From Bacillus sp. N1-1 (GTDB lineage: Bacteria; Bacillota; Bacilli; Bacillales; Guptibacillaceae), in NCBI RefSeq assembly GCF_009818105.1, contig NZ_CP046564.1:2170001-2234000 (forward strand): a stretch of 64,000 bases of DNA. Reading direction: 5' to 3'. The notes under the pieces were generated by a model. It was not told where the DNA came from. It saw nothing but the letters and a program-made list of their open reading frames with translations, and did not search any database. Shown here in pieces: positions 2,077 through 27,174 of the stretch (positions are counted from its first letter, which is position 1; each line of letters opens with the position of its first letter). Both the position numbers and the translations under genes were made by a program.

Positions 2077-4218
2077 TTGGCCGTTTGTATTATCGCCGAA
2101 AAGCCAGATCAGGGAACGCGCCTTGCAGCGCCTTACCCAACTGAAAAAAAACAAGGATATTTGTACATAAAACCAAACCCGGACTTTCCTGACGGAGCTT
2201 ATATGACATGGGCGGTGGGACACTTATGTGAACTAGTTCCGCCTGAAACCTATGAATCTTCATGGAAGAAGTGGTCTCTTCAAACACTTCCTATGATTCC
2301 AAACCAATTTCAATATCAGGTAACGAAAGGAAAGTGGAAGCAGTTTAACGTGATTAAAGAACTAGTCAATAAAAAAGAAGTTGGCTCAATTATCCATGCT
2401 GGAGATGCTGGGAGAGAAGGTGAGCTGATCGTTCGGACGATTTTGAATCAGGCTCGTTGTAAAAAGCCGATGAAGCGACTTTGGATTTCTTCCTTAACTG
2501 AGCGTGCTGTAAAGGAAGGATTTCAATCTCTGTTAGAAGAAGAAGAGACTCGTAATCTTTACTATGAGGCTTATGCCAGATCGTGTGCAGATTGGGTTGT
2601 TGGCATTAATGCTTCACGTGTCTATACGCTTCTTTTTAAACAGAAAGGTGTTCAGGATGTGTTTTCTGCAGGGAGAGTTCAAACGCCTACACTTGCGTTA
2701 GTTGTGCAAAGAGAGAAAGAAATCGCGGACTTTAAATCAGAGCCATTCTGGGAAGTGAAGGGGGAGTTTGACTACAATGGAAAAATCGTTGTTGGAAAAT
2801 GGATTAAAGACGAGCAAACGAGGTTGCAATCTCCCGAAATGGCGCAGGCTGTCGCTCAATTTTGTAACCAAAAAGACTGCGTAGCAAGTGAAGTAAAGAA
2901 AGAACGAAAGCAATACAAGCCTCCCTTTTTGTATCAACTTTCTTCTCTTCAATCCACTGCGAACAAACGGTACAAATTTTCGCCAAAAAAAACGTTGGAC
3001 ATTGCGCAAAAGCTTTATACGAAAGGGAATATTTCCTATCCACGAAGTGATTCTAGCTTTGTTACGAAGGATGAAGCGGCTGAATTTCCTTCCATTTTAT
3101 CAAAGCTACAAAAACAAAGTGCTTATCAAGATTATTTTCCATTAAAACGGGAGACGATCTTAAATGACAAGAGGTTTGTCAATGCATCAAAAGTAAGCGA
3201 CCACTATGCGATCATCCCAACAGAGCAGGTTCCAAACCTTGATAAACTGTCAGGGGATGAGGCAAAGATTTATGATTTAATTGCAAGAAGTTTACTTGCG
3301 GCGCATGAAGAGGCCTCAATCGTTGATTATACGACTTTATTCACGCTTGTCGATCAACGAGCTTTGTTCCAATCAAAAGGGCAGGTGCGCGTACAAGAAG
3401 GTTGGCAGCGGATCATACCATCGACTCAAAAAGATGAGGAACTACCTGCTATTGAGCAGAACGAGCAAGGTAAGGTGCTCTCAGCGGAAGTAACAGAGGG
3501 TAAAACCCAGCCGCCAAAACGATTTACTGAAGGTCAGCTGATTACAATGATGAAAACGGCTGGAAAGCATCTTGACGATGAGTCATTAGAGAAAATCCTG
3601 AAAGATACGGAAGGGCTAGGAACAGAAGCAACGAGGGCAGGCATTATTACGATGCTGAAAGATCGGAAATACATTGAAGTTGTTAAGAACCAAGTATTCG
3701 CAACAGATAAGGGAATTCTTTTAATCGACTCCATTGGGGACGCGGTTCTTTCAAGTCCAGAAATGACGGCGAAGTGGGAGCAGCGGCTCAAACAAATAGG
3801 TAGCGGTGAAGCATCACCACAAACCTTTATGGAATCTGTTAAGAAGCTTGCAGCGAAACTAACATCAGATGCGATTGAATCTTCAGCTGCCTGGGATTTA
3901 AAAGATATAAAAATAGAAGCCCAACCTTCCAAAAAATCATTAGGGAAAAAGGTAGGTACATGCCCGCTCTGTGGCTCTGATGTACTAGATAAGGGGAAGT
4001 TATTTGGGTGTAGTAGCTATTCTAAAACAAACTGTTCGTTCACGATTTCTAAGCGAATTTTGGGGAAACCTATTTCACAAACGAACGCGAAGAAAATTCT
4101 AACGGACGGAAAATCAAATGTAATTAAAGGATTAAAAAGTAAAAAAGGCACATTTGATGCAGCGCTCGTTTGGAGTGCAGAAGAAAAGAAACTAACATTT
4201 GAATTTGAAAAGAAGTGA
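2077..4218 (+). CDS. topB: DNA topoisomerase III-like (type IA)
   Basis: Type IA topoisomerase, which nicks one DNA strand through a 5'-phosphotyrosine link and passes the other; TopB enzymes act in decatenation and recombination. The protein is 713 aa. The TOPRIM domain carries AEKPDQ near residue 7 and GDAGREGE near 109-116. The catalytic tyrosine is Y321 in GNISYPRSDSS. A C-terminal zinc ribbon begins with CPLCG (C629/C632), followed by further cysteines. I choose TTG at 2077 over ATG 2068: GAGAGGG (2061-2067) abuts the ATG but is 9 nt from the TTG, and the product then begins MAVCIIAEKP as in the family. The N-terminal AEKPDQGTRLAAPY differs from B. subtilis TopB, so it may be a divergent second TopB lineage. 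It stands alone and ends in a terminator. Confidence 0.88.
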   Translation: MAVCIIAEKPDQGTRLAAPYPTEKKQGYLYIKPNPDFPDGAYMTWAVGHLCELVPPETYESSWKKWSLQTLPMIPNQFQYQVTKGKWKQFNVIKELVNKKEVGSIIHAGDAGREGELIVRTILNQARCKKPMKRLWISSLTERAVKEGFQSLLEEEETRNLYYEAYARSCADWVVGINASRVYTLLFKQKGVQDVFSAGRVQTPTLALVVQREKEIADFKSEPFWEVKGEFDYNGKIVVGKWIKDEQTRLQSPEMAQAVAQFCNQKDCVASEVKKERKQYKPPFLYQLSSLQSTANKRYKFSPKKTLDIAQKLYTKGNISYPRSDSSFVTKDEAAEFPSILSKLQKQSAYQDYFPLKRETILNDKRFVNASKVSDHYAIIPTEQVPNLDKLSGDEAKIYDLIARSLLAAHEEASIVDYTTLFTLVDQRALFQSKGQVRVQEGWQRIIPSTQKDEELPAIEQNEQGKVLSAEVTEGKTQPPKRFTEGQLITMMKTAGKHLDDESLEKILKDTEGLGTEATRAGIITMLKDRKYIEVVKNQVFATDKGILLIDSIGDAVLSSPEMTAKWEQRLKQIGSGEASPQTFMESVKKLAAKLTSDAIESSAAWDLKDIKIEAQPSKKSLGKKVGTCPLCGSDVLDKGKLFGCSSYSKTNCSFTISKRILGKPISQTNAKKILTDGKSNVIKGLKSKKGTFDAALVWSAEEKKLTFEFEKK

Positions 4219-24913: not shown

Positions 24914-25067
24914 GACACTCTTCCTTTACCTATTTTTAGTTCTCTTCAATCACCTGCAAAAATGAGAAGCTATTCGGTTTAGACGGAAAGATTCACTTTG
25001 GTGATAGGAGTATGATATGATTCATGCAAGTTGAATGATATGAATACAACATTATTTTAAAAATATT

Positions 25068-25096
25068 TTGAATTTTTTCTCCATAGCTGGTATATT
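25068..25096 (+). promoter_or_regulatory. Promoter of the c-di-GMP riboswitch transcript
   Basis: TTGAAT (25068-25073), 17 nt, TATATT (25091-25096). It would start a leader of about 205 nt. A second candidate, TTGAAA at 25122-25127 with AAATAT at 25145-25150, is weaker. Confidence 0.6.
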
Positions 25097-25195
25097 AGTA
25101 GCATATACCGGCAAACTTCTATTGAAAATCTGTAAATTCTTTAAAAATATGTAGGATTTCTAGGAAAATAGTCGGTGCATGTCATTTCTTAATTC

Positions 25196-25285
25196 TCCAG
25201 ATAAGGGCAAACCATTCTAAAGAATGGGACGCAAAGACACAGGTCTAATGTTGGGTCACCAACGATGACGGCTGGTCCTCCTGGA
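25196..25285 (+). ncRNA. Cyclic di-GMP-I riboswitch (GEMM-I)
   Basis: The sequence carries the GEMM-I core: AGGGCAAACC, a stem CATTC/GAATG with a TAAA loop, then GGGACGCAAAG, then the second arm AGGTCTAA...GATGACGGCTGG with inner stem TTGG/CCAA. P1 closes by TCCAG (25196-25200) with CTGGA (25281-25285). Just inside the 3' side, TCCTCC (25276-25281) is a perfect complement of GGAGGA (25296-25301), part of the ribosome binding site of the next gene. Ligand-stabilised P1 would compete with that pairing, so I infer a translational ON switch; the polarity is not proven. Confidence 0.87.
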
Positions 25286-25308
25286 AACCCGATAAGGAGG
25301 AGAAAAGA

Positions 25309-25461
25309 ATGACCATGGCAGAGATTAAGCCTAAGAAAGTACTTGATCAAGAATGGGTTATTCTAATGAGGGCTGCCCGGGAGCTTGGATTACAAAAGGA
25401 AGAGGTAAGGTCATTCCTAAGACAAGACAAAAAACCGACATCTACGAATGTACATAAATGA
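25309..25461 (+). CDS. SinI-like antirepressor
   Basis: A 50-aa protein. LDQEWVILMRAARELGLQ (12-29) and KEEVRSFLRQDKK match the SinI/SlrA antirepressor domain, a helical hook that binds the master biofilm repressor SinR and keeps it off DNA. It has no DNA-binding part, as expected for an antirepressor. ATG 25309 is 8 nt after AAGGAGG (25294-25300); a second in-frame ATG at 25315 is possible. No sinR neighbour is present. The gene stands alone behind a c-di-GMP riboswitch and has its own terminator. This suggests that c-di-GMP level sets antirepressor supply. Confidence 0.82.
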   Translation: MTMAEIKPKKVLDQEWVILMRAARELGLQKEEVRSFLRQDKKPTSTNVHK

Positions 25462-25463
25462 TA

Positions 25464-25487
25464 AGCGACCAGTAAGGTCGTTTTTTT
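25464..25487 (+). terminator. Terminator of the SinI-like gene
   Basis: GCGACC/GGTCGT stem with an AGTAA loop, followed by seven T residues. Confidence 0.8.
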
Positions 25488-25499
25488 CTGGCTTAATCC

Positions 25500-25529
25500 T
25501 TGACTTTAGGTGAACATTTTTTGTATCAT
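25500..25529 (+). promoter_or_regulatory. Promoter of the glycyl-tRNA synthetase leader
   Basis: TTGACT (25500-25505), 18 nt, TATCAT (25524-25529). Confidence 0.6.
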
Positions 25530-25567
25530 ATGTCATATCAATCTCATACATAAACCATACTAACTAT

Positions 25568-25763
25568 GAAGGACAAATAGTAATCAGATAAACCTCATTT
25601 AAGCGATTCGGGGATGGTGAGAGCCCGAATAAGGTCTGATGAAACGGCGGTCTGGAGTTTACGTTCTGAAAGTGGATGCATGAAATGCATCAACTAGGGT
25701 GGAACCGCGGGTGCATAAGCTCTCGTCCCTGGACATTTATTGTCCATGGAGCGGGAGCTTTTT
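25568..25763 (+). promoter_or_regulatory. T-box leader (glycine type) with terminator
   Basis: The canonical T-box AGGGTGGAACCGCGGG is at 25696-25711. Upstream stem I contains GGGGATGGTGAGAGCCCG and a candidate glycine specifier GGC (25646-25648). The intrinsic terminator is AAGCTCTCG...CGGGAGCTT plus T-run, with an inner TGGACA/TGTCCA stem (25717-25763). Uncharged tRNA-Gly would bind and favour antitermination, raising synthetase expression. The leader's 5' limit is approximate. Confidence 0.9.
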
Positions 25764-25791
25764 ATATTGATTGAAAAAAGGAGAGAATAAC

Positions 25792-27174
25792 ATGACAATT
25801 TCAATGGATCAGATCGTATCTGTATCAAAGCACAGAGGATTTATTTTTCCGGGGTCTGATATTTACGGAGGACTCGCAAATACGTGGGACTATGGTCCAC
25901 TTGGCGTAGAATTAAAAAACAATATTAAAGGAGCATGGTGGAAGAAATTTGTTCAAGAATCACCATACAATAGTGGCCTAGACGCTGCCATATTGATGAA
26001 CCCTAAGACTTGGGAAGCTTCAGGGCATCTAGGTAACTTTAATGATCCATTAATTGATTGCAAAAGCTGTAAAACACGACACCGTGCTGACAAGTTAATT
26101 GAAGACGCACTATCGACAGAAGAAGATGAAATGATTGCTGACGGCCTTTCATTTGAAGAAATGGAACGACTTATTAAAAACAACAACATTACATGTCCTG
26201 AATGTGGTAGTGAAGACTTTACAGAAATTCGTCAGTTTGATTTAATGTTTAAAACACATCAAGGTGTAACAAAATCAAGCACAAGTGAAATTTACCTTCG
26301 ACCGGAAACAGCACAGGGGATTTTTGTTAACTTTAAAAATGTACAGCGTTCGATGCGTAAAAAAGTACCTTTTGGTATTGCACAAATAGGAAAAAGCTTC
26401 CGAAACGAAATCACACCTGGTAACTTTACGTTCCGTACTCGCGAATTTGAACAAATGGAGCTTGAATTTTTCTGTAAACCTGGTGATGAGCTAGAATGGC
26501 ATGAATATTGGAAAGAGTATTGCAAAAACTGGTTGCTGAATCTAGGGGTAAGTGAGGAGAGCATTCGATTACGTGAGCATGCGGAAGATGAGCTTTCTCA
26601 TTATAGTAATGCAACAACTGATATTGAGTACAAATTCCCATTTGGTTGGGGTGAGCTATGGGGTGTTGCTTCTAGAACAGATTATGATCTTAAGCAGCAT
26701 ATGGAACACTCAAATGAAGACTTTACTTATCATGATCAGCAAACGGGTGAAAAGTATGTACCATATTGTATCGAGCCTTCACTAGGTGCAGATCGTGTGA
26801 CGCTTGCCTTTTTGATTGAAGCATATGAAGAACAAGAGCTTGAAGATGGCACTTCAAGAAGTGTGATGCACTTCCACCCGGCGATTGCGCCATTTAAAGC
26901 AGCTGTCTTCCCACTTTCTAAAAAACTTTCTGAAGAAGCGCGTGCAGTTCATGCTGAGCTATCTAAATACTTCATGGTTGATTATGACGAAGCTGGTTCA
27001 ATCGGTAAACGTTACCGTCGCCATGATGAAATTGGTACACCTTACGCGATTACGTTTGATTTTGATTCTGTAGAAGATCAGCAAGTAACAATCCGTGACC
27101 GTGATACGATGGAACAAAAAAGAATGCCGATTTCACAACTGAAAAGCTTTCTTGAAGAAAAAACACAATTTTAA
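25792..27174 (+). CDS. glyQS: Glycyl-tRNA synthetase, single-chain (alpha2) type
   Basis: Charges tRNA-Gly. The 460-aa class II synthetase is of the eukaryote/archaea-like homodimeric kind, not the GlyQ+GlyS two-gene enzyme of B. subtilis. Seen: [23 protein letters not shown] at the N-terminus (motif 1 region), a zinc-type insertion with CKSCKTRH and [24 protein letters not shown], motif 2 [21 protein letters not shown], and motif 3 in [13 protein letters not shown]. The anticodon-binding domain is at the C-terminus. ATG 25792 follows AAAAGGAGAG; the upstream TTG at 25771 lacks a site. It is controlled by the T-box directly before it. Confidence 0.94.

Follow-up and report, generated by a model that had tools for sequence, protein, structure and literature searches.

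The window analysed here is a 64,000-nt stretch covering bases 2170001-2234000 of a single-contig genome of 4.50 Mb, and positions 25068-25487 of its plus strand hold a complete small unit made up of promoter, leader, aptamer, Shine-Dalgarno (SD) sequence, open reading frame and terminator-like hairpin. A consensus scan placed a sigma-A-type promoter (TTGAAT-17-TATATT) at 25068-25096 (+). This call is weak taken alone, because the scan returned four such sites in the region against 2.0 in shuffled sequences; the promoter is kept in all 14 orthologous loci of the genus (TATATT in 12, TATAAT in two). The SD sequence GGAGGA (25296-25301, +) stands 7 nt before the ATG of sinI (25309-25461, +), which encodes a 50-aa SinI-family antirepressor and is followed by a predicted intrinsic terminator (25463-25487, +). 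In the terminator-like scan the latter is a hairpin of eight pairs (25463-25483) plus a T run, and it is the sole terminator-like site on the plus strand between 24950 and 25600. Judged from its sequence, the sinI unit is monocistronic, with the terminator directly downstream of the ORF. The closest named relatives in our scan were Pseudalkalibacillus (NCBI: Guptibacillus) hwajinpoensis strains; one record, L083, carries a leader identical to that of the window, and the ORF, SD, promoter and D-x-EW core of the protein are retained in 14/14 genus genomes. The exact sequence TGTCGAA, which we take to be the Spo0A box, does not occur within 285 nt upstream of the 22 genus leaders examined. This agrees with the remark of an earlier note on this DNA that c-di-GMP would act here without Spo0A-driven sinI transcription, although it does not prove it.

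SinI acts by switching off SinR, the repressor of biofilm formation. The assignment of the window ORF to this family rests on its match to PF08671 (E 7.3e-11; 42.1 bits against a cut-off of 31.4), the sole family above cut-off in a short, single-domain protein without a helix-turn-helix, and its two best matches in the PDB are both SinI chains (5tmx_A, E 1.6e-4; 1b0n_B, E 1.8e-4), as expected from the earlier reading of the gene as SinI-type. The genome holds five PF08671 places, which correspond to three SinI proteins and two SinR paralogues, SinR1 (111 aa; C1:4205978-4206313) and SinR2 (113 aa; C1:4207145-4207486), each carrying PF08671 as its Sin domain. A SinR partner is therefore present in the genome, both paralogues being encoded away from the window pair (hereafter locus A). 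Additionally, there are six GGDEF places in the genome, and these proteins could be a supply of c-di-GMP, the signal on which bacteria turn to a settled life.

The leader carries a c-di-GMP-I (GEMM-I) aptamer (25196-25285, +), which cmscan matched to RF01051 at 25196-25284 with 66.9 bits against a gathering cut-off of 35 (E 6.6e-11 for the window). The helix closing the aptamer, P1, can form five pairs between UCCAG (25196-25200) and CUGGA (25281-25285), and the aptamer end at 25285 given in the earlier note is right, since the P1 strand CUGGA runs to that position. The residue at the c-di-GMP/cGAMP specificity position is a G (25206, +), presumably the equivalent of G20 in Vc2 numbering, and the two Gs of GGCAA are invariant across 64 leaders from outside the genus. 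The alignment also places the ligand-pocket cytosines at 25280-25281, where we assume the equivalent of C92 to lie, within a UCCUCC motif (25276-25281, +) that can act as an anti-SD strand. By analogy, the G at 25206 is expected to confer specificity for c-di-GMP rather than for cGAMP, as a G20A change has been linked to cGAMP binding (PMC6274999). Elsewhere in the window there is a purine riboswitch aptamer (RF00167; 50083-50185, +; 77.5 bits).

Predicted expression platform of the sinI leader

Only 10 nt separate P1 from the SD, and UCCUCC (25276-25281) can form six Watson-Crick pairs with GGAGGA (25296-25301), the complementarity on which the earlier note was built. UCCUCC is present at locus A in 13/14 genus orthologues, with UUCUCC in the remaining one. 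In the free minimum free energy (MFE) fold of 25190-25330, the SD region is occupied by another strand, the 5' flank UUCUCC (25193-25198, +), which overlaps the 5' strand of P1 and pairs with GGAGAA of the SD region while UCCUCC pairs elsewhere; the UCUCC of this flank is kept in 14/14 locus-A orthologues. Across the predicted ensemble of the window leader the two strands share this role, with 2.5 expected SD pairs to the 5' strand and 3.4 to the pocket/3' strand. Because both overlap P1, either one is excluded once P1 closes, and thus the earlier proposal that aptamer closure and SD sequestration are mutually exclusive stands, but its choice of UCCUCC as the sequestering strand does not hold for the MFE fold.

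Folding with the aptamer core and P1 enforced raised the unpaired probability of the six GGAGGA positions from 0.00-0.24 in the free ensemble to 0.28-1.0, at a cost of 6.7 kcal/mol for the window leader. When the core was enforced without P1, the window SD was predicted to remain mostly paired, so the predicted switch depends wholly on P1 closure. Among 81 parsed leaders of 83 distinct ones (L026 and L062 being unparsed), P1 enforcement increased mean access to the SD core in 77 (11/11 of locus A, 8/8 of the second pair of this genus, locus B, and 58/62 others), in thermodynamic predictions in which enforcing P1 removes the competitor by construction. The rise exceeded 0.3 in 58 of the 81 and was absent in four (L045, L056, L064 and L078). 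With P1 enforced and the pocket cytosine removed, mean SD access went from 0.10 to 0.45 for locus A (11 leaders), from 0.31 to 0.76 for locus B (8) and from 0.32 to 0.70 for the others (62). In a separate run, in which some pockets were misplaced, mean access for these three groups was 0.16, 0.31 and 0.33 in the free leaders, 0.31, 0.43 and 0.61 with four bases of the pocket blocked, and 0.16, 0.33 and 0.30 with four bases blocked elsewhere. We still infer the ON polarity, as the earlier note did, now from the freeing of the predicted SD in 77/81 leaders, and these folds favour a translational ON switch.

The same arrangement was sought in an alignment of 64 leaders from outside the genus, which leaves out L071 (a duplicate), L081 (truncated) and nine records of the window's genus. 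The consensus 3' of the aptamer reads CUGCCUGAAAUAC-loop-GUAUUUUAGGAGG, a hairpin whose 5' arm, made up of the pocket CC, the 3' strand of P1 and the bases that follow, pairs with a stretch ending in the SD. Its ten pairs are standard in 95.4% of 635 cells, compared with 28.9-53.8% when the strands are slid by one to three columns, and both the pairing percentage and the covariation score were reached by 0/500 shuffles. Of 500 shuffles, 21 reached the observed number of double-change pairs and 24 that of further pair types. Compensatory changes are modest, with double-change cells numbering 10 in the hairpin and 1-9 in the slid versions. Since such cells are few, the case for the hairpin rests more on pairing kept across divergent genera than on covariation. 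The competing three-pair P1 is paired in 84.9%, and its covariation score was reached by 65/500 shuffles. At locus A in the window's genus, UCCUCC:GGAGGA replaces this hairpin and the 5'-flank UCUCC provides a second partner. A variant, CCUGAA...UUCAGG, was seen by eye in L160 and L161 (the latter with GGAAAAA), where the hairpin takes the pocket and leaves the SD outside.

As a specificity control within the genus, pocket:SD pairing was scored in 3/14 parsed non-sinI aptamers against 4/5 sinI ones, in a set from which 11 of 30 loci were dropped (nine without a parsed pocket; L095 and L096 without an aptamer or SD found) and in which L097 is possibly misplaced. Pocket:SD pairing is not exclusive to sinI aptamers.

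A second pair and occurrence across Bacilli

The genome holds four c-di-GMP-I aptamers, two of which directly precede two of the sinI genes. At locus B, the aptamer (C1:4205624-4205722) leads into four genes, in this order: sinI (39 aa), sinR1 (111 aa), a sinI of 40 aa on the minus strand and sinR2 (113 aa). Both pairs are found in 14/14 genus genomes, two per genome, where they account for 28/58 aptamer matches, and an association in 2/4 aptamers of this genome and 28/58 of the genus indicates that the pairing is beyond chance. Locus A is an extra copy of the riboswitch-sinI pair, lying away from sinR. The 5' P1 strand of locus B carries UCCUCC in seven of eight leaders read by script and CCCUCC in one, with a weaker 3' hairpin, and locus B may use the 5' UCCUCC instead of that hairpin; of its 14 leaders these eight and one read later were covered, and the other five are known from match positions only. 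The two remaining aptamers of the genome lie ahead of a 300-codon ORF, whose N-terminus looks signal-like by eye, and of a probable membrane peptide of 45 aa (MKESWLTPEEIQYRR...). Both of these targets recur in other genus genomes (records L001, L002 and several of L098-L122).

A strict pattern of aptamer core, SD and SinI core retrieved 82 stretches from GTDB contigs, of which 75 contain a SinI ORF and seven (L032, L048, L054, L060, L065, L069 and L076) were left out for having none. Together with the two of this genome, 77/77 proteins matched PF08671 at E 0.01. A looser aptamer-SD-SinI DNA pattern was found in 68/299 genomes and 29/116 genera of the order, which is a lower bound on prevalence, and the same pattern reversed gave no match in the 299 order genomes. 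In each of the 30 loci fetched from this search, a short ORF that has a start codon carries D-x-EW in frame, as judged by eye. A still looser pattern over the class matched 19/398 genomes, and five genomes outside the order contributed six SinI-like loci between them; the matches L187 and L197 were rejected as SinI loci, being due to chance. In one genome outside the order (L188), two c-di-GMP-I-type aptamers (1559-1643 and 2329-2414, -) lie less than 1 kb apart upstream of sinI. All 17 loci sampled across this spread gave c-di-GMP-I or c-di-GMP-I-GGC above cut-off at the expected place. At the scale of the order, at least 266/299 genomes have some RF01051 match and at least 223/299 some SinI domain. 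The recurrence of the pair in related genomes, named as a check in the earlier note, was thus found in 14/14 genomes of the genus and 68/299 of the order. Its remark that sinI of B. subtilis is not riboswitch-controlled fits with the absence of RF01051 from 14 control genomes (0/14), B. subtilis, which is positive for PF08671, among them.

Of 76 pairs, 47 have a SinR-like ORF no more than 1.5 kb away, on the same strand in 19 and on the opposite strand in 28, in a set in which 10/76 loci hold less than 600 nt downstream, eight of these being without a SinR match. Eight locus-A records of the named set showed no SinR-like gene within 1.5 kb, one of them (L025) holding just 45 nt downstream.

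Proposed circuit and alternatives

We consider it likely that the monocistronic sinI is translationally switched on by c-di-GMP and that the SinI produced relieves repression by SinR. This is our best explanation of the locus. The analysis establishes the aptamer, the SinI family match, the complementarity, the conservation, the predicted coupling of P1 with the SD and the SinR partners in the genome, and what we infer is ligand binding, the ON polarity, the SinI-SinR contact and the genes under SinR. Without ligand, initiation would be blocked because UCCUCC and the 5' P1 flank UUCUCC would between them pair with the SD region GGAGGAGAA. The ligand, once bound, would engage the pocket cytosines and close P1, and the closed P1 would take up parts of both anti-SD strands and free the SD. 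SinI made at high c-di-GMP would then bind one or both SinR paralogues at the Sin domain, and SinR repression would be lifted.

Among the alternatives, it is unlikely that SinI acts on a Sin-domain protein other than SinR or that the gene is a decaying copy. The lack of a SinR-like gene within 1.5 kb in the eight locus-A records, L025 with its 45 nt included, would be in line with either possibility, but all 14 genus genomes retain the ORF with its SD, promoter and D-x-EW core, and the PF08671 places of this genome, five in all, correspond to the two SinR paralogues, which both carry this domain, and the three SinI proteins. An OFF switch, in which the ligand lowers sinI expression and high c-di-GMP strengthens SinR repression, is quite improbable. 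Both 'off' and 'on' c-di-GMP riboswitches are named in B. thuringiensis (PMC7793685), the polarity is a prediction here and four of 81 leaders gave no rise in SD access when P1 was enforced; however, in the window, as in most leaders, the strands predicted to compete for the SD share bases with the pocket and with P1, and no SD-blocking element specific to closed P1 was seen in the window leader beyond a two-pair helix.

A transcriptional platform, with termination or antitermination before sinI, has a precedent in the cbpA riboswitch of the B. cereus group, which has been described as switching on transcription (PMC7423583). The short 10-nt stretch between P1 and the SD and the position of the sole plus-strand terminator-like site in 24950-25600, downstream of sinI, make this very improbable in our case. 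Furthermore, none of the 77 pairs contains a T6 run between the point 45 nt past the first base of GACGCAAAG and the start codon, and there is therefore no sign of an intrinsic-terminator platform. That the riboswitch belongs instead to the next long ORF on the same strand (25771-27174), which by eye resembles a glycyl-tRNA synthetase gene (glyS), is hardly credible, as the terminator-like site lies 3' of sinI, the glyS-like gene appears by eye to have a T-box-like leader of its own and aptamer and sinI stand together in many genomes besides this one. This T-box-like leader (AGGGTGGAACCGCGGG; by eye) is found at about 25600-25760 (+) and has no Rfam match at gathering score.

Relation to known systems

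The preferred reading, a c-di-GMP-induced translational switch on sinI, shares with other c-di-GMP-I riboswitches (RF01051) the aptamer fold and the conserved ligand positions (66.9 bits), and differs from them in having an antirepressor gene as its target and pocket cytosines that double as anti-SD strand. The aptamer-sinI pairing is not wholly new, since one member was in print in 2015: the same pairing appears in the transcriptome of Bacillus methanolicus MGA3 by Irla et al., where a putative c-di-GMP riboswitch is listed before sinI (BMMGA3_08510) in Table 4 (PMC4342826). That report devotes one sentence and one table line to it, for one species, and these do not give the platform, polarity, conservation or SinR linkage. 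Searches of the open-access literature turned up no earlier account of the platform, of how widely it occurs, of the duplication or of the linkage to SinR, which are new to that extent; there may be further material in subscription papers.

In B. subtilis, the SinI family is the same and the SinR partner likewise has a Sin domain (PDB 1b0n); unlike the window genome, PF08671 is present there while RF01051 is absent. Transcription of its sinI is activated by Spo0A, and the SinI-SinR biofilm switch has been read as a Spo0A output (PMC8876208). The cbpA 'on' riboswitch of the B. cereus group is also a c-di-GMP riboswitch that promotes a sessility function, but it is described as transcriptional and as controlling an adhesin directly and not an antirepressor (PMC7423583, PMC7793685). 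In B. thuringiensis, sinI was reported as up at high c-di-GMP with reference to unpublished microarray data, in a passage that does not mention a riboswitch on sinI (PMC7793685). In addition, a c-di-GMP-I riboswitch of Paenibacillus has been proposed to be 'antisense-acting' towards a SinR-like gene, and there the aptamer likewise lies on the strand opposite the sinR-like gene (PMC9943018). In our set, by comparison, 28 of the 47 sinR-adjacent pairs have sinR opposite to both the riboswitch and its sinI, and by analogy the Paenibacillus element may be the leader of an overlooked sense sinI.

The observation is real, and the sinI riboswitch probably works much as the earlier note guessed; it is one of a broad set. 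As a tentative generalisation, which we regard as slightly less likely than not, direct c-di-GMP control of sinI translation would be widespread and possibly the ancestral Sin wiring in Bacilli, with pocket cytosines as anti-SD and the Spo0A-driven B. subtilis as the exception; this genus would have gained a second riboswitch-sinI copy apart from sinR, and c-di-GMP riboswitches reported as 'antisense' opposite sinR-like genes would in some cases be leaders of overlooked sinI. The interest lies in the conserved platform together with a direct second-messenger input to the Sin switch. If true, the circuit would be simple and open to testing in many culturable genera and would provide a compact natural ON switch for reporters, and it may explain c-di-GMP-I aptamers adjoining sinR-like genes.

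Candidate SinR outputs

Lastly, we searched the genome for genes under SinR. The TasA/CalY family (PF12389) had no match in the genome, with B. subtilis positive as a control, and TasA/CalY was ruled out as a SinR output on this ground. A candidate SinR operator palindrome, GTTCTRTTTACRGAAC, has exact copies in the genome only upstream of sinR1 and sinR2 (L010; GTTCTATTTACGGAAC at 2401-2416 and GTTCTGTTTACAGAAC at 3575-3590), and a like palindrome occurs in each of 13 other genus clusters; these positions suggest that SinR autoregulates through the palindrome. The expectation of the earlier note that high c-di-GMP favours matrix production finds no backing in these results, with no PF12389 match and exact candidate operators before the two sinR genes only. 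With up to two mismatches, GTTCTRTTTACRGAAC matched nine times in the genome and its reversed control 23 times, which puts the inexact matches at chance level; a SinR regulon drawn from them was rejected, and inspection of five two-mismatch loci gave nothing firm. One palindrome, GTTCTTTTTATAGAAC at L182 1501-1516, is flanked by a DUF192-like gene on one side and a prepilin-peptidase/TadE-like pair on the other, all named by eye; it is a chance-level match to the SinR site, yet a possible adhesion target.
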